This document shows, piece after piece, positions 20,949-30,369 of a DNA stretch of 48,561 bases. This stretch comes from Melioribacter roseus. Lineage in GTDB: Bacteria; Bacteroidota; Ignavibacteria; Ignavibacteriales; Melioribacteraceae. Position numbers and translations under genes: made by a program. Position 1 is the stretch's first letter. Each line of letters begins with the position of its first letter. The notes beneath the pieces are model-generated. The model was not told the origin of the DNA. It made no database searches and worked only from the letters and a program-made list of their open reading frames with translations. The stretch spans positions 1 through 48,561 of the forward strand of contig DYSW01000006.1 of assembly GCA_020726285.1 (NCBI GenBank), in the 5' to 3' direction.

Positions 20949-22042
20949 TTCTTTACCAAATTAAATGTTTCGTTAATTGCTAATTCAACGTTTGCTTGTT
21001 CTGATTCAAAACCAACCACAATTTCTCCGAAGTTTATGGGAAGTACAAATTTTATTTTTCCAGCACGATTTTTTTTGTCACGTAATAGAATTGCGAAGAT
21101 TTCATTCATTTCAATCTTGTGAGAAATTGTGCCAAAATCTACTTTCTGAATTATTCTTGCAATTTGAGATGACAATTTAATTTCTGCAATATTTTCAATT
21201 TCAGATAATCTGCTTGCTGAAAATAATCCTAAAAGAACAGCTTTTCCGTGAGTAATTTTATGATTTGTTGCAACTTCGTAAGCGTGAGCAAAAGTGTGTC
21301 CAAGATTTAGAATTTGTCGCATTCCACTTTCTTTTTCATCACTTTTCACAATACTAATTTTCATTTCAGCTGCTTTTTGAATTATTTTCTGCGGGATTTC
21401 TACGGAATTATCAATCAAAATTTTATTAAAAATGGTTTTAATCTTATTGAAATAACTTTTATCATTCAAAATGCCGTATTTAAACAATTCTCCCAATCCT
21501 GAAATAATTTCTTCTTTTGCAAGAGAATTTAGGAAATAAGTGTCAGAAAAAATGAATTCTGGGTGGTAAAATGTTCCAACAAGATTTTTAGTTTCTCCAA
21601 AATTAATACCAGTTTTTCCTCCGATAGAACTATCAACAATTGCCAATAAAGTTGTTGGAATATGTGTGAATTTAATTCCTCTCGCATAAATTGAAGCAAT
21701 AAATCCAGATAAATCGCCAACAATTCCTCCGCCAATTGCTACTAAAAATGTATCACGACCGTATGAATTTTTTATTAAATCTTGCAAAATTTCCTGTGCA
21801 GAATCAATTGATTTGTTTGATTCTTTAGATTTTAAAATAAATTTACTTGAATTTGGAAAATTTTGAAAGAGTTCGAGCAACTCATTTTTATAGAACTTAA
21901 ATACATTTTTATCGATTACAAAGTAAAATCTTTCTGTAATTTTGCGGGATTTTGTGTAATTGAAGAAATTTTCAAAAAAAGATGAAAATACTATATCGAT
22001 TTGATTTTCAGACTTAAGTGAATATTTAATATTTTTCATCAA
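20945..22042 (-). CDS. aroB: 3-dehydroquinate synthase
   Basis: A 365-aa NAD- and metal-dependent enzyme converting DAHP to 3-dehydroquinate in the shikimate pathway. The motifs are G-G-G-I-V-G-D-L-S-G-F, the S-S-I-G-G-K-T-G-I-N block, the metal-ligand E of G-L-G-E-L-F-K-Y-G, and L-N-L-G-H-T-F-A-H-A with its metal-ligand histidines. The start is one of two adjacent ATGs (22042 or 22039), overlapping the end of aroK by 17 nt, so translation is coupled with that shikimate gene. Confidence 0.95.
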   Translation of the reverse strand: MMKNIKYSLKSENQIDIVFSSFFENFFNYTKSRKITERFYFVIDKNVFKFYKNELLELFQNFPNSSKFILKSKESNKSIDSAQEILQDLIKNSYGRDTFLVAIGGGIVGDLSGFIASIYARGIKFTHIPTTLLAIVDSSIGGKTGINFGETKNLVGTFYHPEFIFSDTYFLNSLAKEEIISGLGELFKYGILNDKSYFNKIKTIFNKILIDNSVEIPQKIIQKAAEMKISIVKSDEKESGMRQILNLGHTFAHAYEVATNHKITHGKAVLLGLFSASRLSEIENIAEIKLSSQIARIIQKVDFGTISHKIEMNEIFAILLRDKKNRAGKIKFVLPINFGEIVVGFESEQANVELAINETFNLVKK

Positions 22043-22586
22043 TTCTCCGTTTAATTTTATTTACGATAATATCGATTGTTTTTCCAACTTGCTGTGTGTC
22101 AGATGGAATCTGAATTTCTGCGGATTTGTAAATTGGTTCTCTTTTTAAGAATAGTTCATTAATTTTTATCATGAAATCTTCTTTTGTTGCAACTCCGGAA
22201 AGAACCAAATCACGAATTAATGGACGGTCAATTTTTCGTTTTAGTCTCTGATATAAAATTTCCAACGAAACAGAAAGGTAAATTGAAAGCCCAATTTCTG
22301 ATATATTTTTTATAATATTGGCATTTTCAACTGTTCCGCCACCAAGCGAAATTACAATGAATTCCTTTTCACAAATCTCAAAAAATTTCTTTTCTTCTAA
22401 TTCACGGAAATACTTTTCACCTTTTTTTTCAAAGATTTGAGTTATTTTCAAATTTTCTGATTGTTCAATCACTTTATCTAAATCAGCAAAATCCCAGCCT
22501 AAAACATTTGCTAAAATTTTTCCAAGTGTAGATTTGCCACTTGTCATAAATCCCATCAAAAAAATTCTGCGGTTATTTATTTTCAT
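22026..22586 (-). CDS. aroK: Shikimate kinase
   Basis: A 186-aa P-loop kinase for shikimate 3-phosphorylation. The Walker A is G-F-M-T-S-G-K-S-T (12-20), followed by the D-L-D shikimate-binding residues, the G-E-x-x-F-R-E-L-E block, S-L-G-G-G-T and the R-P-L-I lid region. I use the ATG at 22586 because it places the P-loop at the usual distance. The longer open frame from 22637 adds 17 hydrophobic residues from within the neighbouring gene. It overlaps the NTPase gene by 14 nt and aroB by 17 nt. Confidence 0.95.
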   Translation of the reverse strand: MKINNRRIFLMGFMTSGKSTLGKILANVLGWDFADLDKVIEQSENLKITQIFEKKGEKYFRELEEKKFFEICEKEFIVISLGGGTVENANIIKNISEIGLSIYLSVSLEILYQRLKRKIDRPLIRDLVLSGVATKEDFMIKINELFLKREPIYKSAEIQIPSDTQQVGKTIDIIVNKIKRRIDEKY

Positions 22587-23103
22587 CAAAGAATAGTTTT
22601 TTATTAAGAAAAGGAACAAGTGCCATAACAATTCCACTTACGTACAAATCTTTTCGTTTGAAAATATTTTTGGTAAAATATCCAATTGCTCCGCCTTTGG
22701 TTTTGGTATTTATTTCGCCCGAACATTCATCAATAACATCACCTAATTCCATTCCATTTTTTAATTTTTCAATAATCTTGTCGGTTAATTGATAATGCGG
22801 AGAAGTTCCAAGTGCCAATTTTCCTTCGAAATTGAGAATTGCAATTACTCCAAACCCGAACCAAATATTATGAATTTTATCAACACCGCCTTCAATTCCA
22901 ACATAAAAATCGGCTGAATTACTTTTTGCGAGCGAAAAAGCTCTATTTTTTGCGCCAAGAAAAACATCTTCGCCAAAAGGTTGATGTGAAACCAATGAGT
23001 TTGTTGAAAGTCCTTCAACAGAAAAATCTTCAAAAAAATTGGAAAAAGCTTCGGCAGTTGCACTAATTTTCACAATATTTTCAGATGCGACAAGTATTCT
23101 CAT
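22573..23103 (-). CDS. Inosine/xanthosine triphosphatase (YjjX/DUF84)
   Basis: A 176-aa member of the YjjX family, which hydrolyses ITP and XTP. The opening V-A-S-E-N-x-V-K, Q-P-F-G-E-D-V-F-L-G-A-K-N-R-A, the G-I-E-G-G-V block and the G-G-A-I-G-Y-F-T end block are typical. It is the second house-cleaning nucleotide phosphatase in the window, with rdgB 3.3 kb away. The ATG overlaps the upstream stop by 4 nt (ATGA). Confidence 0.9.
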   Translation of the reverse strand: MRILVASENIVKISATAEAFSNFFEDFSVEGLSTNSLVSHQPFGEDVFLGAKNRAFSLAKSNSADFYVGIEGGVDKIHNIWFGFGVIAILNFEGKLALGTSPHYQLTDKIIEKLKNGMELGDVIDECSGEINTKTKGGAIGYFTKNIFKRKDLYVSGIVMALVPFLNKKLFFDENK

Positions 23104-23384
23104 TTTTTCGATAAATATTTTTTTCTCTGTTCAGTAAATTCCCACCACTTTTTGGATTTTCCACCTTCCATAAAATCTATTGCGGCAAGAAAAACATCAA
23201 TTACGCAATTATCTTGTTTTGAAGATGTTAATTTACAGAGATCCTCAAATAATTGATAAGCATTTTTTCCGATTAAATCTTTCGGTTCCAAAATTCCCAA
23301 CAGAAAAAAATCTGATTCAGTTGCTTTTCCAACATTTGGAATGTCTGTAAAATTTTGGACAAAAGATGAATTTTCTGCTTTCAT
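23100..23384 (-). CDS. Helix-hairpin-helix protein (Cdd1/'pathogenicity locus' type)
   Basis: A 94-aa protein with an HhH-like core I-P-N-V-G-K-A-T-E-S-D-F near residue 17, then a Leu-rich helix, an invariant-looking D-N-C-V-I-D-V-F and a terminal K-W-W-E-F. These match the Cdd1 family of small helix-hairpin-helix proteins of unproven function. The ATG shares one base with the tag stop (TAATG). Its place next to a DNA glycosylase would fit a nucleic-acid-binding role, but that is inference. Confidence 0.8.
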   Translation of the reverse strand: MKAENSSFVQNFTDIPNVGKATESDFFLLGILEPKDLIGKNAYQLFEDLCKLTSSKQDNCVIDVFLAAIDFMEGGKSKKWWEFTEQRKKYLSKK

Positions 23385-23965
23385 TAAACCTCGTTATAAC
23401 GAAAACAAGTTGTTAAATGGTCATTTATCATTCCAGCAGCTTGCATATAAGCATAACAAATTGTTGAGCCAACAAAATTAAATCCTCGTTTTTTAAGCGA
23501 TTTACTCATTGCCTCTGATTCTTGCGAACTTGCGGGTAGTTGTTTGATATTTTCCAATTTATTTACAATTGTTTTGTAATCTGTAAATTGCCAAATGAAT
23601 TTATCAAATGACCCAAATTCTTCATGAATTTTAAGAAAAGCTTTTGCATTCTGAATTGCACTTCTAACTTTAAGGTTGTTGCGTATTATTCCAGGATTTT
23701 GTAGCAATTGTTGGATTTCGGTTTCTCCAAAATTTGCAACTATTTCTGGATTGAAATTGGCGAATACTTTTCTATAATTTTCTCGTTTTTTTAACACCGT
23801 AAGCCAACTTAATCCAGCTTGAGCTGCATCGAGAATTAGAAATTCGAAATGCTTTTTGTCATCGTGAACAGGAACTCCCCATTCTTTATCGTGGTATTCA
23901 ATGTAAATTGGGTCGGATAAACACCATTGACATCGAGATATTTCTGTATGATTTATTGTTGTCAT
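23384..23965 (-). CDS. tag: DNA-3-methyladenine glycosylase I
   Basis: A 193-aa Tag enzyme that excises 3-methyladenine from alkylated DNA. The zinc-snap residues are present at both ends: C-x-W-C and Y-H-D-K-E-W-G near the N-terminus, and N-D-H-x-x-x-C at the C-terminus. The core Q-A-G-L-S-W-L-T-V-L-K-K-R-E block that forms the base pocket is intact. It is the first gene of the six-gene minus-strand operon, with its promoter in 23966-24056. Confidence 0.95.
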   Translation of the reverse strand: MTTINHTEISRCQWCLSDPIYIEYHDKEWGVPVHDDKKHFEFLILDAAQAGLSWLTVLKKRENYRKVFANFNPEIVANFGETEIQQLLQNPGIIRNNLKVRSAIQNAKAFLKIHEEFGSFDKFIWQFTDYKTIVNKLENIKQLPASSQESEAMSKSLKKRGFNFVGSTICYAYMQAAGMINDHLTTCFRYNEV

Positions 23966-24054
23966 AATTTTTTACAAATGATTTATTGTCCCAAAATATT
24001 GATTATTTATAAAATATAGAAGAATTATTTGCGAATTATTCTAAATATTTTAAA

Positions 24055-24093
24055 ATAAAAAAGGGAACTTCGGTTAAAAGTTCCCTTTTTTGT
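24055..24093. terminator. Bidirectional-type terminator after dnaK
   Basis: AAGGGAACTT (24061-24070) and AAGTTCCCTT (24078-24087) form a strong GC-containing stem with a short loop, flanked by A-run on the left and T-run on the right, so it can work on both strands. It lies 24 nt after the dnaK stop on the minus strand and insulates the tag operon from dnaK transcription. Confidence 0.9.
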
Positions 24094-24115
24094 AGGGATG
24101 TATATGGAAATTTAA

Positions 24116-26059
24116 CTATTTCGTGTCATCGTCCACAACTTCGTATGAAGCGTCTTCAACATCTTTTGCTTTATTTTGATTTGCTTGTTCATTCGCATTT
24201 TTAGCAGTTTCATTTGCATTAAAATTTGGGTCGAAACCAGCACCTTGTTGTTGTCCACCACCTTGTTGATAAAGTTTTGGAGCGATTTCATTCCAAACTT
24301 TATTCAAATCATCAGTAGCAGATTTAATACTTTCAGAATTATTTGAAGCAATTGCATCTTCAATTTTCTTAATTTCAGATTCCAAACGTGCTTTATCACC
24401 AGATTCAAGTTTATCTTTTAATTCTTCCATCTGCTTTTTGGTTTGAAATACTAAATTATCAGCATTGTTCTTAATTTCAATAGCTTCTTTTTTCTTTTTA
24501 TCTTCAGCCGCATTTTCTTTTGCTTGATTTTTCATTTTTTCAACTTCATCTTTTGACAAACCGCTTGAAGAAGTTATTCTAATACTTTGTTCTTTACCTG
24601 ATGCTTTATCTTTTGCAGCAACGTGCAAAATTCCGTTTGCATCAATATCAAAAGTAACTTCAACTTGTGGAACGCCGCGTGGTGCTGGTGGAATTCCATC
24701 AAGATGAAAACGACCTAAAGTTCTATTATCGGCTGCCATTGGTCGCTCACCTTGTATAATATGAATTTCCACAGAAGGTTGGTTATCAGATGCAGTTGAG
24801 AAAACTTCACTTTTCTTGGTAGGAATTGTTGTGTTTGCTTCTATTAATTTTGTCATAACTCCGCCAAGAGTTTCAATTCCAAGTGAAAGTGGAGTAACAT
24901 CAAGAAGCAGAACATCCTGAACATCGCCAGCAAGCACACCGCCTTGAATTGCAGCGCCAACTGCAACAACTTCATCTGGATTGACACCTCTGTGCGGTTC
25001 TTTTTTGAAAATTCTTTTTACAATTTCTTGTACCATTGGAACACGAGTTGAACCGCCCACAAGAATTACTTCGTTAATCTGAGAAACTGAAACACCAGCA
25101 TCACGAATTGCATTTTCGCAAGGAATTGCAGTTCGCTCAACCAAATCGTTAATCAATTGTTCAAATTTTGCTCGAGTAATTAAAATATTCATGTGCTTCG
25201 GACCATCTTGAGTTGCTGTGATAAAAGGTAAATTTACATCACTTTGCATTGCAGAAGAAAGTTCAATTTTAGTTCTTTCAGCCGCTTCTTTAAGTCTTTG
25301 AAGTGCCATCGGATCGTTTCGTAAATCTATTCCTTCTGTGCGTTTAAATTCGTCAGCTAGGAAATCAATTAATTTCTGATCAAAATCATCTCCGCCAAGA
25401 TGTGTGTCTCCGTTCGTTGATTTTACTTCAAAAACACCGTCTCCAAGTTGAAGAATAGAAACATCAAATGTACCACCGCCAAAATCGTAAACAGCTACAA
25501 GTTGCTCTTTATTTTTTTTGTCTAAACCATAAGCAAGTGCTGCGGCAGTAGGTTCATTAATAATCCTTCGGACAGTTAATCCTGCAATTTCGCCAGCATC
25601 TTTTGTAGCTTGACGTTGTGCATCATTAAAATAAGCAGGAACAGTAATTACAGCTTCTGTAACATCTTGTCCAAGATATTCTTCAGCCGTTTTTTTCATT
25701 TTTTGTAAAATCATTGCAGAAATTTCTGGAGGTGAATAAAGTCTATCATCAATCTTAATTCTTACCGAATCACCATCTCCACCAACAATTTTGTAAGGAA
25801 CTTCTTGTTGTTCGCGTGAGATTTCGTTCAATTTTCTTCCCATAAATCTTTTTACTGAAAAGATTGTATTGTGTGGATTTGTAACTGCTTGTCTTTTTGC
25901 AGGTTGGCCAACTAATCTTTCGCCGCTTTTAGTAAATGCCACGACAGAAGGCGTAGTTCTGCCACCTTCGGAATTTGGAATTACAACAGGCTCATTTCCT
26001 TCCATAACTGAAACGCATGAGTTTGTTGTGCCAAGATCGATACCAATTATTTTTCCCAT
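24116..26059 (-). CDS. dnaK: Molecular chaperone DnaK (Hsp70)
   Basis: A 647-aa Hsp70. The ATPase domain (1-~385) opens G-I-D-L-G-T-T-N-S and contains [10 protein letters not shown] and D-F-G-G-G-T-F-D. The [11 protein letters not shown] linker follows, then the substrate domain and a helical lid with an acidic tail. The start is the ATG at 26059, preceded by AGGAG with good spacing. The open frame reaches 26116, but that segment is the regulatory hairpin between hsp20 and dnaK. It is the second gene of a two-gene operon with hsp20; dnaJ and grpE are not adjacent. Confidence 0.97.
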
Positions 26060-26065
26060 ATTTTC

Positions 26066-26116
26066 TCCTATAATTTGTTGAAAGCCAGAAGTTATAGGAT
26101 TTCTTCCAGCTTTCAA
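26066..26116 (-). promoter_or_regulatory. 5'-leader hairpin of dnaK with loop complementary to its ribosome-binding region
   Basis: On the mRNA (minus strand) positions 26116-26103 pair with 26091-26078 to give a 14-bp stem; two of the pairs are U-G wobbles, and the outer arm is TTGAAAGC/GCTTTCAA. The 11-nt loop contains UCCUAUAA (26099-26092). The same eight bases are exactly complementary to UUAUAGGA (26073-26066), which includes the AGGA of the dnaK ribosome site. Two exclusive folds are thus possible: the long hairpin with a free ribosome site, or an 8-bp helix that hides it. The stem may also act as a processing or stabilising element between hsp20 and dnaK. The pairing is read directly; any function is inferred. 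Confidence 0.6.
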
Positions 26117-26131
26117 TGGGGTTAACCGTTG

Positions 26132-26542
26132 TTAATTAATTTTTATGTTTATTTCGTTTTTCTGTTCGGATTTTAGTTTGTTTAGTGAAATTGTAAGAAT
26201 TCCATTTGTAAATTCAGCTTGAATATTTGATTTATCAACATTTTCAGGCAATTCAAATTCACGATTGAAAATACCAAACAAACGTTCAGAATTTGTTAAT
26301 GTGTTTTCATTCCTAAAATTTTTCTTTTCACCTTCAATCCGCAAAGTGTTATCTTTCAGTGTAATCTTTACATCTTTTTTTTCGATTCCGGAAATTTCAA
26401 CATCTACAAAGTAATTTTCGGTATTTTCAGAAATATCTATTTTGGGTGAAAATTTATTTTCTTTAAAAATGTTTTCGAAGAGATTTGTAAAATTATTCAA
26501 GTTATTTTCATTTAAGATTTGTTCAAAATGTTTGTAATTCAT
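26132..26542 (-). CDS. Small heat shock protein, Hsp20/alpha-crystallin family
   Basis: A 136-aa holdase-type chaperone. The alpha-crystallin domain (~35-125) contains Y-F-V-D-V-E-I-S-G-I-E-K-K-D-V-K-I-T, L-R-I-E-G-E-K and the conserved F-x-N-G-I-L-T-I-S-L strand. Its C-terminal tail has an I-N-I-K-I variant of the I-x-I motif. The ATG at 26542 has AAGGA about 8 nt upstream. An earlier in-frame ATG at 26563 lies at or before the transcript start predicted from the sigma-54 promoter, so it cannot be used from that promoter. It heads an operon with dnaK, 72 nt downstream. Confidence 0.93.
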   Translation of the reverse strand: MNYKHFEQILNENNLNNFTNLFENIFKENKFSPKIDISENTENYFVDVEISGIEKKDVKITLKDNTLRIEGEKKNFRNENTLTNSERLFGIFNREFELPENVDKSNIQAEFTNGILTISLNKLKSEQKNEINIKIN

Positions 26543-26570
26543 TATTTTTCCTTTTTTGAGCATTTATTTA

Positions 26571-26588
26571 AGCAATTCACGTGCCAAG
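26571..26588 (-). promoter_or_regulatory. Sigma-54 (RpoN) promoter of hsp20-dnaK
   Basis: The minus strand reads TTGGCACG-TGAA-TTGCT, an exact match to the sigma-54 consensus TGGCACG-N4-TTGC, with the -24 GG and -12 GC dinucleotides separated by exactly 10 nt. The predicted transcript start is near 26560, leaving an 18-nt leader that contains the AAGGA ribosome site of hsp20. Sigma-54 promoters need an AAA+ activator bound upstream. None is encoded in the window. Confidence 0.85.
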
Positions 26589-26677
26589 AATTAATATTGT
26601 GGATAAGTTGTTATTTTGTAAGATATTAGAACGAATTTAGTTTAATTAAGAATTCAATGAAATTATTTTATTATAGA

Positions 26678-26691
26678 TTCGATTTGTCGAA
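26678..26691. promoter_or_regulatory. Inverted repeat, candidate activator site upstream of hsp20 (or birA operator)
   Basis: TTCGA-TTTG-TCGAA is a perfect 5-bp-arm inverted repeat. It lies about 118-131 nt upstream of the predicted sigma-54 transcript start, a usual distance for enhancer-binding activators. A second repeat, GTATAT-N8-ATATAC, is at 26708-26727 but is AT-only apart from its ends. Either could instead regulate the divergent birA gene. Confidence 0.4.
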
Positions 26692-26742
26692 AAGCTGTAA
26701 ATATGTCGTATATTATGAAAAATATACATAACGGAGGTTAGT

Positions 26743-27522
26743 TTGTTTAATTTAGAAAGTTTTGATATAAAATTAGATACTGAATATCTTGGAAGAGAAT
26801 TTATTTATTTCGATGAGGTTGATTCTACAAATAATGAGTTGATGAAATATCCAGAATTATTGCCCAATGGAACAGTTTTAATGGCTGAATCTCAAACAAA
26901 TGGCAAAGGAAGAATTGGTAGAACTTGGATTTCAAATTCAGACCAAAATCTAACTTTTTCAATTTTTTTGAACGAAGATTTGGATAAATATTCATTACCC
27001 TTACTAAATTTAACAACTGCACTTTCTGTTGGACAAGCTATAGAAAACTTATTTCAACTTGACATTAATCTGAAATGGCCTAATGATGTTTTGGTTAAAA
27101 ACAATAAAATTGCGGGAATTTTAGTTGAATCGAAAAGTAAAAGCAATTTGATAGAAAAAGTAATAATTGGAATTGGAATTAATGTAAATCAACCAATTTT
27201 TAAGGGAAATTTTGAAATTCAGCCAACTTCAGTTCTTAAAGAATTAAAAAGGGAAGTAAGTAGAGAACGCTTAATGAGTGAGTTTTTAAATATTTTCGAA
27301 GAAAATCTTGAAACGCTTGTTTACAATCCTAAAGAAATTTTACAAAATTGGAAGAATAAATGTAAAATGCTTGATGGAAAAATTAGGATTACAAATGGAG
27401 AAATTGTTAAAGTAGGTAAATTTATCGATGTAGATAACGAAGGATTTCTAGTTCTTAGAAAAATTGATAATTCACTCGAGACTATTGCTTTCGGAGATGT
27501 TTCTATTCGTGAACACGATTAA
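26743..27522 (+). CDS. birA: Biotin-[acetyl-CoA-carboxylase] ligase
   Basis: A 259-aa biotin protein ligase of the monofunctional (group I) type: the N-terminal DNA-binding helix-turn-helix is absent, so it should not be a repressor. The motifs are D-S-T-N-N-E, G-K-G-R-I-G-R-T-W (54-62, biotinyl-AMP loop), K-W-P-N-D-V-L-V (111-118) and K-I-A-G-I-L-V-E with the catalytic lysine. The start is TTG, with a clear GGAGG 5 nt upstream. Confidence 0.94.
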   Translation: MFNLESFDIKLDTEYLGREFIYFDEVDSTNNELMKYPELLPNGTVLMAESQTNGKGRIGRTWISNSDQNLTFSIFLNEDLDKYSLPLLNLTTALSVGQAIENLFQLDINLKWPNDVLVKNNKIAGILVESKSKSNLIEKVIIGIGINVNQPIFKGNFEIQPTSVLKELKREVSRERLMSEFLNIFEENLETLVYNPKEILQNWKNKCKMLDGKIRITNGEIVKVGKFIDVDNEGFLVLRKIDNSLETIAFGDVSIREHD

Positions 27523-27525
27523 AAA

Positions 27526-28770
27526 TCAGTTTACATTATATATAATTTCACCATTTTTTATGGTTTTTTCTACAATATTTTGCCCAATATTATAGAATAA
27601 ATCTGAATAATTTGGACTCTGAAGTACAACAAAATCAGCTTTTTTGCCAATTTCTAAACTTCCGATATTAACTTCCATATTTAGAGCTTTTGCGGCATTA
27701 ATAGTAGCTGCAGAAATAATTTCCTCAAACGACATTTTCATTCGCATTGCCGCAAGTTGCAAAATAAAATGAAAATTCAAAATATGTGATGAACCAGGAT
27801 TAAAATCAGTTGCAAGCGCCACGATTACGTTGTTATCAATTAATTTTCTTGCTGGAGCAAAATTATAATTTAAGAAGAAAGACACTCCAGGTAACAAAGT
27901 GGCAACCGTTGTGGAATTTGATAAAAGAGAAATACCATTTTGAGTTAATATTTCAAGATGATCAACACTAACTGCTTTATTTTTTAGAGCAATTTCCAAA
28001 CCACCGATTTCGTTAAATTGTTCGGTGTGTAATTTAAGTGAAAAACCAAGTTCATTAGCTTTTTGAAAAATATTATCAACTTCTGCAGGTGAAAAAGCAG
28101 TAGTTTCGCAAAAAGCATCTACAAATTCCGCTAAATTATTTTCTTTTATAAAAGGAAGCATTTCTTCTGTAATTAAAGAAATATATCTTGATTTATCATT
28201 TTGATATTCAGGCGGGAAAGTGTGTGCTCCAAGAAAAGTTGAGACAATATCAATTCTAAATTCATTTTTCAATTGCTTAATTACTTGCAACATTTTTATT
28301 TCATCTGAGAAACTTAATCCATAACCACTTTTAATTTCAAGCGTTGTAATTCCTTGCTCAATAAATCTTTGAATGCGTATTCTTGAATTTTGTACGAGTT
28401 CTTCGAGTGTTGAATTTCTAACTGATTTTACGGTATCCAAAATTCCACCACCGTTTTTTGCTATTTCTTCATATGAAATTCCACTTAATTTCAATTTAAA
28501 TTCATTTGAACGCGAACCAGAAAATACCAAATGAGTGTGCGATTCCACAAATCCAGGCAAAATACATTTATTTGTCAAATCGATTACATCGTTGTAATCT
28601 TCCAAAACAACTTCCGAATTTTTAGGAAATTCCAAAATAATGCCATTTTCAACCAAAATTGAATGATTTTCTAAGATTGAAATCTCATTCATTTCATTTC
28701 CTCTTAAAAAATATTTACCAGCTGTGTTTACTGTAACAATTTGTGATGGTTTATAAAATAGTCTCTTCAT
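27526..28770 (-). CDS. hutI: Imidazolonepropionase
   Basis: A 414-aa metal-dependent amidohydrolase that opens 4-imidazolone-5-propionate in histidine degradation. The family metal motif E-S-H-T-H-L-V-F is near residue 75, followed by the HutI-specific G-G-G-I-L-D-T-V block, S-G-Y-G-L-S, L-H-T-E-Q-F and A-T-D-F-N-P-G-S-S. The other hut genes are not in the window. It is convergent with birA (3-nt gap) and divergent from glgA, and an inverted repeat lies in the shared upstream region. Confidence 0.93.
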   Translation of the reverse strand: MKRLFYKPSQIVTVNTAGKYFLRGNEMNEISILENHSILVENGIILEFPKNSEVVLEDYNDVIDLTNKCILPGFVESHTHLVFSGSRSNEFKLKLSGISYEEIAKNGGGILDTVKSVRNSTLEELVQNSRIRIQRFIEQGITTLEIKSGYGLSFSDEIKMLQVIKQLKNEFRIDIVSTFLGAHTFPPEYQNDKSRYISLITEEMLPFIKENNLAEFVDAFCETTAFSPAEVDNIFQKANELGFSLKLHTEQFNEIGGLEIALKNKAVSVDHLEILTQNGISLLSNSTTVATLLPGVSFFLNYNFAPARKLIDNNVIVALATDFNPGSSHILNFHFILQLAAMRMKMSFEEIISAATINAAKALNMEVNIGSLEIGKKADFVVLQSPNYSDLFYNIGQNIVEKTIKNGEIIYNVN

Positions 28771-28810
28771 TTTTAGTCAACTTAATTTAATACTTAAATA
28801 TGCTACTATT

Positions 28811-28825
28811 TTGGCTCTGAGCCAA
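28811..28825. promoter_or_regulatory. Perfect inverted repeat in the hutI-glgA divergent promoter region
   Basis: TTGGCTC-T-GAGCCAA is a 15-bp perfect inverted repeat and the only GC-richer element in a 105-bp AT-rich intergenic region. It lies 41 nt upstream of the hutI start and 50 nt upstream of the glgA start, a plausible operator position. A lone half-site TTGGCT recurs at 28865-28870. The regulator is unknown. Confidence 0.5.
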
Positions 28826-28875
28826 GATTTACATATTTTTAAAGTCAGAATTTTAAAAAATAATTTGGCTAAAAA

Positions 28876-30369
28876 ATGGCACCAAAATCATTAAAAATAT
28901 TATTTGTAACTCCTGAAGTTATTCCGTTTACAAAAACGGGTGGTTTAGCAGATGTTTCTTCAGCTTTACCACAAAAATTGTTACAAAGTGGACATCAAAT
29001 CAGAATATTAACTCCAAAATATGGTGCGATAGACGAAAGAAAACACAAAATTCACGAAGTTGTGAGATTGAAAGATATTCCAACTCAAATTGCTGGCAAA
29101 GATATTACTTTTTCTTTACGCTCATCGTTTTTACCTGGGCAAAAAACACGTGTTCAATTATATTTTTTAGACAATCAAGAATATTTTGGTAGTCGATTTT
29201 CTCTTTATATGGATCCAATCTCTGGTGTTGATTTTCATGATAATGATGAAAGATTTATTCTTTTAGCTAAGTCTGTAATAGAATTGATAGACAGATTGGG
29301 CTGGTATCCTGATATTATTCACTGCAACGATTGGCAAACTGGACTTATTCCAGCATACGTTAAATTAGCAAGCCAAACAAAAGAAACATTCAAGAAAATT
29401 AAAACTTTATTTACAATTCATAATATTGCTATACAGGGAATATTTCCCAAAAGTACTTGCAAAAAGATTGAATTGCCTGTTGGCGATTGTGTCGATTCAA
29501 AAATAACTATTAAAGATAAACCAAACTTCTTGAAAGCTGGATTAGTATATGCCGATTCAATTAGTACCGTTAGCGAAAGTTTTGCGGAAGAAATTTCATC
29601 AAGTGCTGAAATGAGCTATGGATTAAATGATCTTTTGTTTTCGAGAAAAGAAAATTTATTTGGAATCTTGAACGGAATTGACCAATCAATATGGAATCCC
29701 GAAAAAGATAAATTAATTCCCAAAAAATATTCAATTGATAAATTGGAAAATAAATTAGTAAATAGACAATCATTAGCAGAAAAATTTAATATTGAAGTTG
29801 ATGAAAACACTCCAATTATTGGAAATATTTCCCGCTTATATGATTCAAAAGGCTTCGATTTAATTAAAAAATCTTTTAAACAGTTGATGAAATTACCAAT
29901 TAAATTGATAATTCTTGGTACAGGTGATAAAAAATACCACGAATTTTTTGATGAAATGGCATTTGAATTTCGCGATAAATTTACATTTTACCCAGGTTTT
30001 GATGATAATATTGCTCATTTAATAGAAGCTGGTTCTGATATTTACCTAATGCCCTCGAAATCTGAACCTTGCGGGTTGAATCAAATGTATAGTATGAATT
30101 ATGGAACAATTCCAATCGTTCATTCAACAGGCGGATTAAAAGATACTGTTACTCCTTTTAATATCGAAACAAGTAAAGGAACTGGTTTCCTTTTTAATAA
30201 TTACACTACTACCGATTTAATAAATACACTTGAAGCTGCCATTAATTTGTTTATTAATGATCGAAAAAATTGGAAAAAAATAATGATAAATGGAATGACA
30301 ACTGACTTTTCATGGGAAAATTCTGCCGAAAATTATGTGAATTTATATAAACAAATAATTACAAAATAA
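28876..30369 (+). CDS. glgA: Glycogen/starch synthase (GT5)
   Basis: A 497-aa GT-B glycosyltransferase that extends alpha-1,4-glucan from ADP-glucose (or UDP-glucose). The N-terminal K-T-G-G-L-A-D-V motif (Lys20) binds the sugar nucleotide. The H-N-I-A-I-Q-G block, N-G-I-D-x-x-x-W-N-P at mid-protein and the C-terminal P-S-K-S-E-P-C-G-L-N-Q catalytic glutamate region are all present. The start has no obvious ribosome site. gmhB follows 3 nt later. Confidence 0.94.
   Translation: MAPKSLKILFVTPEVIPFTKTGGLADVSSALPQKLLQSGHQIRILTPKYGAIDERKHKIHEVVRLKDIPTQIAGKDITFSLRSSFLPGQKTRVQLYFLDNQEYFGSRFSLYMDPISGVDFHDNDERFILLAKSVIELIDRLGWYPDIIHCNDWQTGLIPAYVKLASQTKETFKKIKTLFTIHNIAIQGIFPKSTCKKIELPVGDCVDSKITIKDKPNFLKAGLVYADSISTVSESFAEEISSSAEMSYGLNDLLFSRKENLFGILNGIDQSIWNPEKDKLIPKKYSIDKLENKLVNRQSLAEKFNIEVDENTPIIGNISRLYDSKGFDLIKKSFKQLMKLPIKLIILGTGDKKYHEFFDEMAFEFRDKFTFYPGFDDNIAHLIEAGSDIYLMPSKSEPCGLNQMYSMNYGTIPIVHSTGGLKDTVTPFNIETSKGTGFLFNNYTTTDLINTLEAAINLFINDRKNWKKIMINGMTTDFSWENSAENYVNLYKQIITK

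Follow-up and report, generated by a model that had tools for sequence, protein, structure and literature searches.

The window, as the whole analysed stretch of 48,561 nucleotides from Melioribacter roseus is called here (contig DYSW01000006.1; Melioribacteraceae, Ignavibacteriota, by kinship), carries on its minus strand the small heat-shock gene hsp20 followed by dnaK. A methyladenine glycosylase gene comes after dnaK, and a divergent biotin-protein-ligase-like gene lies upstream of hsp20. The features on which the following account depends are, in window coordinates:

24116..26059, minus strand: dnaK; no other full-length DnaK was found in the genome (PF00012; TIGR02350, 1003 bits, from a scan without the first residue)
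26078..26116, minus strand: 14-bp hairpin between hsp20 and dnaK, with no T-run (z = -3.43 over 26052-26138)
26132..26542, minus strand: hsp20 (136 aa), its start moved from 26563 to the one that the congener also has (PF00011, E = 1.9e-24)
26549..26553, minus strand: AAGGA ribosome-binding site, from the sequence
26557..26560, minus strand: predicted transcription start region, the conserved C column being 26560
26571..26586, minus strand: -24/-12 element TGGCACGTGAATTGCT, with GG at 26585-26584, GC at 26573-26572 and exact spacing
26604..26625, minus strand: possible degenerate copy of the proximal dyad (TATCTTAC ... AACTTA), 12/16, a score reached by 24% of controls
26685..26689, minus strand: CGACA half-site, candidate activator-binding element by GACA-type enrichment
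26704..26708, minus strand: second CGACA half-site in the same orientation, 14 bp from the first, by the same enrichment

The open reading frame listed for hsp20 (143 aa, 26132-26563) begins at an in-frame ATG (26563-26561) that sits just ahead of the expected transcript start. The ATG at 26542 is preceded by AAGGA, yields a product of 136 aa and is the codon at which the frame of the closest relative also begins, so that the listed frame is probably seven codons too long; the choice of this ATG in the initial annotation, which excluded the upstream one, thus agrees with the coordinates and with the relative. The Hsp20 of the congener is 90% identical to that of the window. A search of the same genome with DnaK gave one further match, short and weak, which we guess to be MreB-like. 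The hairpin between the two genes is kept in the congener (z -2.35) and may set the hsp20:dnaK ratio. Among related loci, 16 of 37 intergenic regions fold at or below -9.8 kcal/mol by our reading and the rest are weak, these being raw energies without a shuffled control, and the folds differ in length and are unrelated in sequence. In many relatives (e.g., L083, L109, L120) a second hsp20 stands directly behind dnaK; tblastn found none after dnaK in the congener (L078).

On the minus strand the region around the element reads ...TTCTTGGCACGTGAATTGCTTAAATAAATGCTCAAAAAAGGAAAAATAATGAATTAC... and TTGGCACGTGAATTGCTTAAATAAATGCTCAAAAAAGGAAAAATAATG. TGGCACG-N4-TTGCT (26571-26586) agrees with the sigma-54 consensus TGGCACG-N4-TTGC(A/T) at 12 of 12 defined positions, with GG at -25/-24, the TTG of -12 at exact spacing and, in the window's species, the C at -12. 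A match to TGGCACGNNNNTTGCW with no mismatch occurs once in the window and nowhere else in the 2.06 Mb genome. Five more sites have one mismatch (three sites at one mismatch or fewer when the pattern is read backwards as a control), and all five lie within open frames of at least 255 codons, so that no second clear target is seen among them. The element had been described as perfect and exactly spaced, and both points stand for the window's species, where it is the sole perfect copy; the word perfect does not extend to most related loci, which are without the C of -12. Before the second hsp20 of the genome, TTGGCAC-N5-TTAG (9/12) with TAACTTA upstream can be picked out by eye, and it counts against this site that the top match of a consensus scan there (10/12) lies elsewhere.

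The conservation of the element was followed in a collection scan of 57 loci and the window, from whose 58 upstream regions two duplicates and one with a short upstream were removed; dnaK is close behind hsp20 in 39 of the remaining 55. TGGCA-N6-TTG occurs within 250 bp upstream in 34 of these 39 dnaK-linked regions, compared with 0/39 for the reversed pattern, 0/39 for the opposite strand and a mean of 0.135 of 39 (maximum 2) in order-1 Markov sequences. The strict core is absent from five of the 39, which we count against the reading, each having a near version. L161, L162, L211-L213, L232, L233, L255, L257-L263 and a few others were left unused in the counts. An overlapping set with one hsp20 locus per genome gave the motif in 24 of 30 (19 of 21 where dnaK follows) with one control match in 30. 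Conservation in close relatives, on which the initial reading depended, holds for the motif (34/39 loci, and kept in the congener) and fails for one base, the -12 C, which is A in the congener. A chance match, in whose favour there is nothing but the small size of the motif, has a negligible probability and is already refuted by this conservation, with 34/39 set against 0/39 in both controls. In two further loci (L272, L277), where hsp20 was not found, the promoter lies directly ahead of dnaK, at a distance of about 43-60 nt, so that the element can be assigned to dnaK no less than to hsp20.

Some genomes show no excess of the bare TTGGCAC-N5-TTG (e.g., G038, with 8 sites versus 17 in the control), which also counts against the reading. 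A wider pattern search gave, among the matches listed, 61 in 51 of 164 genomes versus 20 control matches by our count; of 30 such loci looked at, 16 have hsp20 and/or dnaK and 14 have neither. Some further sites can be described individually. In G022, four places (L218, L223, L228, L231) carry similar sites, TTGGCACACAATTTGC or TTGGCACACTATTTGC, with a C run behind them, perhaps a repeat or mobile element. In relatives, -24/-12 sites precede genes that by eye are nuoE-like and 2-oxoacid:ferredoxin oxidoreductase-like (L226, L238). One G033 site (L239) has, again by eye, a similar dyad, and no gene could be assigned downstream of it.

In an alignment of 38 motif-bearing loci on -24, covering 70 bp on its upstream and 60 bp on its downstream side, more than 1 bit is reached solely by T, GG, C, A and C in the -24 box, by the TTG of -12 and by a C lying 13 nt on; these figures are conditional on the motif, and the column table left out seven of the 55 upstream regions. 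One of the seven, L082 (core GTGGCATAAGCATTGT, 83 bp before the ATG), where the scoring chose a different place, counts among the 34 strict-core loci and is absent from this set and from the half-site and dyad sets. The column 13 nt after the G of -13 is C in 35/38 loci and is followed by A in 29/38 (T in the window's species), a pyrimidine-purine step that, in our reading, has the look expected of a start site. The same alignment bears on whether hsp20-dnaK is under dual control, with a housekeeping promoter giving a basal transcript to which the sigma-54 promoter adds a stress input. DnaK is commonly needed at all times, and the AT-rich region holds sigma-70-like matches (e.g., 26690-26662 and 26749-26721 on the minus strand); however, such matches number 38 in 22000-30000 against a shuffle mean of 37.3, and no other column exceeds 1 bit in the aligned interval. 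Dual control is thus a possibility to which we give well below an even chance, though more than to any of the other alternatives. Should a second promoter act here, the operon would not depend wholly on RpoN, contrary to what the initial reading inferred.

If the element is read by sigma-54, the genome should hold the factor and its activators. The rpoN called for in the initial annotation was found, in one copy, with the RpoN box ARRTVAKYRE, together with ten matches to PF00158, four of them above 200 bits, three of these four with a receiver domain and one without. Among the 39 genomes, rpoN was found in 36, the window's own included; a domain search gave no RpoN match in G002 (77% complete), G013 (86% complete) or G022. 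The last, 99% complete, keeps a motif, which counts against the sigma-54 reading, and a second RpoN domain was also not found there; it has 15 activator matches, for which reason an assembly gap is likelier than a loss of rpoN, the choice for G022 lying between such a gap and an unusual RpoN. Of the activators, an NtrX-like response regulator (L032) and the receiver-less enhancer-binding protein (EBP; L034) have best reciprocal matches in six of six relatives (57-95% and 58-95% identity, respectively), and the other two (E2, E4) in at least three of six each; in this search 13 of 82 loci were lost to the Walker pattern, and reciprocity was judged against the genome's own four only. The receiver-less EBP lies in a gene row with lptE and with two genes that by eye are amidase-like and cytochrome-like. 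These two proteins are the best candidates for the activator. The NtrX-like protein has GSFTSA in the window's species and the congener and GSFTGA or GAFTGA in five other relatives, and the receiver-less EBP has GSYTGA; since the genome's own NtrX-like protein carries GSFTSA in place of GAFTGA, the receiver-less EBP is slightly, and only weakly, favoured as the putative activator.

Upstream of the element, GACA-type half-sites occur at 0.47 per 40 bp between 40 and 80 bp above -24 and at 0.82 per 40 bp between 80 and 120 bp, versus 0.127 in the control, and same-direction GACA pairs have gaps of 15, 7 and 14 bp among the commonest. Closer to the element, the inverted repeat TAACTTAT-N9-ATAAGTTA scores at least 13/16 in 22 of 38 relatives' loci (control 3.8%), beginning 38-42 bp above -24 in 21 of those 22. 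Both motifs were chosen on the very sequences that served for counting them, so that the controls cover base composition and not that choice; in the window's species the upstream elements are degenerate, which counts against the sigma-54 reading. The GACA half-sites could be the activator's site, and the proximal dyad could be an architectural or a regulator site. Two other candidates were set aside, namely a DnaA-box-like TTATCCACA (26598-26606, minus strand), whose first three bases overlap the AACTTA half-site of the possible dyad and which is present in the congener and, by eye, not kept at other related loci, and a TTCGACAAATCGAA inverted repeat (26678-26691), not kept in the congener.

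The dyad also raises the question of whether the conserved block might be bound by another factor, such as an ECF sigma or a repressor, and resemble a -24/-12 promoter only by its sequence. The variable -12 C would suit such a factor, as would the inverted repeat, whose distance from the block hardly varies; by contrast, what stays invariant is the set of bases of the sigma-54 -24 box, spaced from TTG as sigma-54 promoters are, together with the start-site column, and rpoN and activators co-occur, which makes this reading very improbable. Comparison of the sequences establishes the element, its spacing, the start-site column, the operon order, the presence of rpoN and activators, and the distance from CIRCE (see below). 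Taken as a whole, they are best explained by a functional sigma-54 promoter of the hsp20-dnaK operon, which we consider very probable, and what is conserved here thus appears to be a real sigma-54-type promoter of a DnaK operon. From these observations we infer promoter activity, a stress signal and an activator. RpoN polymerase would bind the -24/-12 element as a closed complex, which an AAA+ activator, bound some 100-120 bp above -24 at the GACA repeats, would open under stress, perhaps with the assistance of DNA bending at the proximal dyad; transcription would begin near 26557-26560, and hsp20 and dnaK would be read together in one transcript.

The base following TTG is the point at which the related loci depart from the consensus. 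Across the 34 strict-core loci it is T in 26, C in four (the window's included) and A in four, and in the 24 loci of the overlapping one-per-genome set it is T in 15 and C, A and G in three each, that is, other than C in 21; the TTGA of the congener and the TTGT of most related loci count against the sigma-54 reading. According to PMC4551910, 96% of sigma-54 promoters in bacteria have the C at -12, which holds basal transcription in check and is not strictly kept at promoters that bypass the activator; when sigma-54 is without its Region I, more bypass is reported at glnAp2 at 42 C. As a yardstick, 38 TTGGCAC-N5-TTG sites were taken from two relatives (18/18 of G022 and 20/29 of G033), of which 26 did not enter the count, being coding, repetitive or unclear; the 12 judged intergenic have C in seven and T in five. 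The contrast with the dnaK loci (26 T, 4 C) gives a Fisher p of 0.0056, with A left out, in a small hand-picked set and uncorrected. T is thus common at the intergenic sites too, so that either T at -12 is simply acceptable to the RpoN of this lineage or the dnaK promoters may be built to leak.

In the second case the sigma-54 promoter of most relatives would give basal DnaK without an activator, through its non-C -12 base, and the activator would add to it under stress. The base counts and the restraining role of the C (PMC4551910) fit this view, whereas the window's species has the canonical C, the published bypass used a sigma-54 lacking Region I, and T is also common at the yardstick sites, the contrast with which is small and hand-picked; we regard such leakage as unlikely. 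More doubtful still is the wider idea that across the Ignavibacteriota selection has removed the silencing C, so that the dnaK promoter leaks a low, temperature-favoured supply of DnaK without an activator beside an HrcA-controlled groESL.

Operons controlled by HrcA and CIRCE comprise the class I chaperone genes, while the sigma-32 heat-shock motif is CTTGAA/CCCCAT at -35/-10. Both HrcA and a CIRCE-like site (at most three mismatches) were found in 39 of 39 genomes, the backwards control for the site being also positive in many of them and not in the window's own. Around 40 hsp20 places, compared in 36 genomes, the nearest 3 kb are free of CIRCE-like sites, and there is none upstream of hsp20-dnaK in the window, which bears out the absence of CIRCE reported for this operon from the outset. 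Unlike in HrcA/CIRCE chaperone operons, the CIRCE-like site of the window's genome is not at hsp20-dnaK but just before groES, and 18 of the 20 CIRCE loci of relatives looked at carry groES; hrcA, grpE and dnaJ are grouped elsewhere in the genome. A -24/-12 match scores no higher than 7/12 in the 300 bp upstream of groES and 8/12 in those upstream of hrcA. With CIRCE at groES, none near hsp20 and a sigma-54 element at hsp20-dnaK, heat-shock control appears to be split, with HrcA governing groESL and sigma-54 governing hsp20-dnaK.

The placing of a dnaK operon under sigma-54 had been set against the usual control of such operons by sigma-32 or HrcA/CIRCE; it has a precedent in Flavobacterium psychrophilum, in which, as far as the cited part of the report goes, mapped starts with -24/-12 motifs precede dnaK, groESL, grpE-dnaJ, htpG, lon and clpB (PMC9723704). 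The locus shares with that sigma-54 (SM4) set the -24/-12 promoter before dnaK and differs in that groESL, which with grpE-dnaJ belongs to the sigma-54 set there, has CIRCE in the window's genome (PMC9723704). Likewise, a survey finds, in its portion drawn on here, IbpA (Hsp20 family), DnaK, GroEL and GrpE enriched behind predicted sigma-54 promoters in Bacteroidota and Planctomycetota, in clusters that, like the present one, place an Hsp20-family gene and DnaK behind such a promoter; the term 'Ignavibacteri' is absent from its main text (PMC12316311). E. coli ibpB, as cited in PMC4370416, is likewise a small heat-shock gene transcribed by sigma-54; in the portion of that account used here, ibpAB is read by sigma-32, and dnaK is unnamed. 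The cited passages on D. vulgaris describe stress operons and no heat-shock chaperone operon (PMC4641369), and those on the heat shock of Rhodopirellula report hsp20 and dnaK as induced and rpoN itself as not regulated (PMC2754498). A literature search, mostly outside subscription papers, gave none pairing Melioribacter with sigma-54 or, among the papers listed, sigma54 with Ignavibacteri. The general idea is therefore known, and the present locus adds the phylum (Ignavibacteriota), the presence of CIRCE alongside, the signals above the element and the distribution of the -12 base; judged on sequence, the hsp20-dnaK promoter is a variant of the arrangement known from flavobacteria.

The many dnaK promoters that have lost the -12 C form a natural series in which the role of that base could be studied in living cells. 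An activator-dependent sigma factor would here control the DnaK arm of the heat-shock response, although HrcA and CIRCE are still present in the lineage for GroESL, and this split may perhaps be a halfway stage towards the flavobacterial sigma-54 chaperone set.
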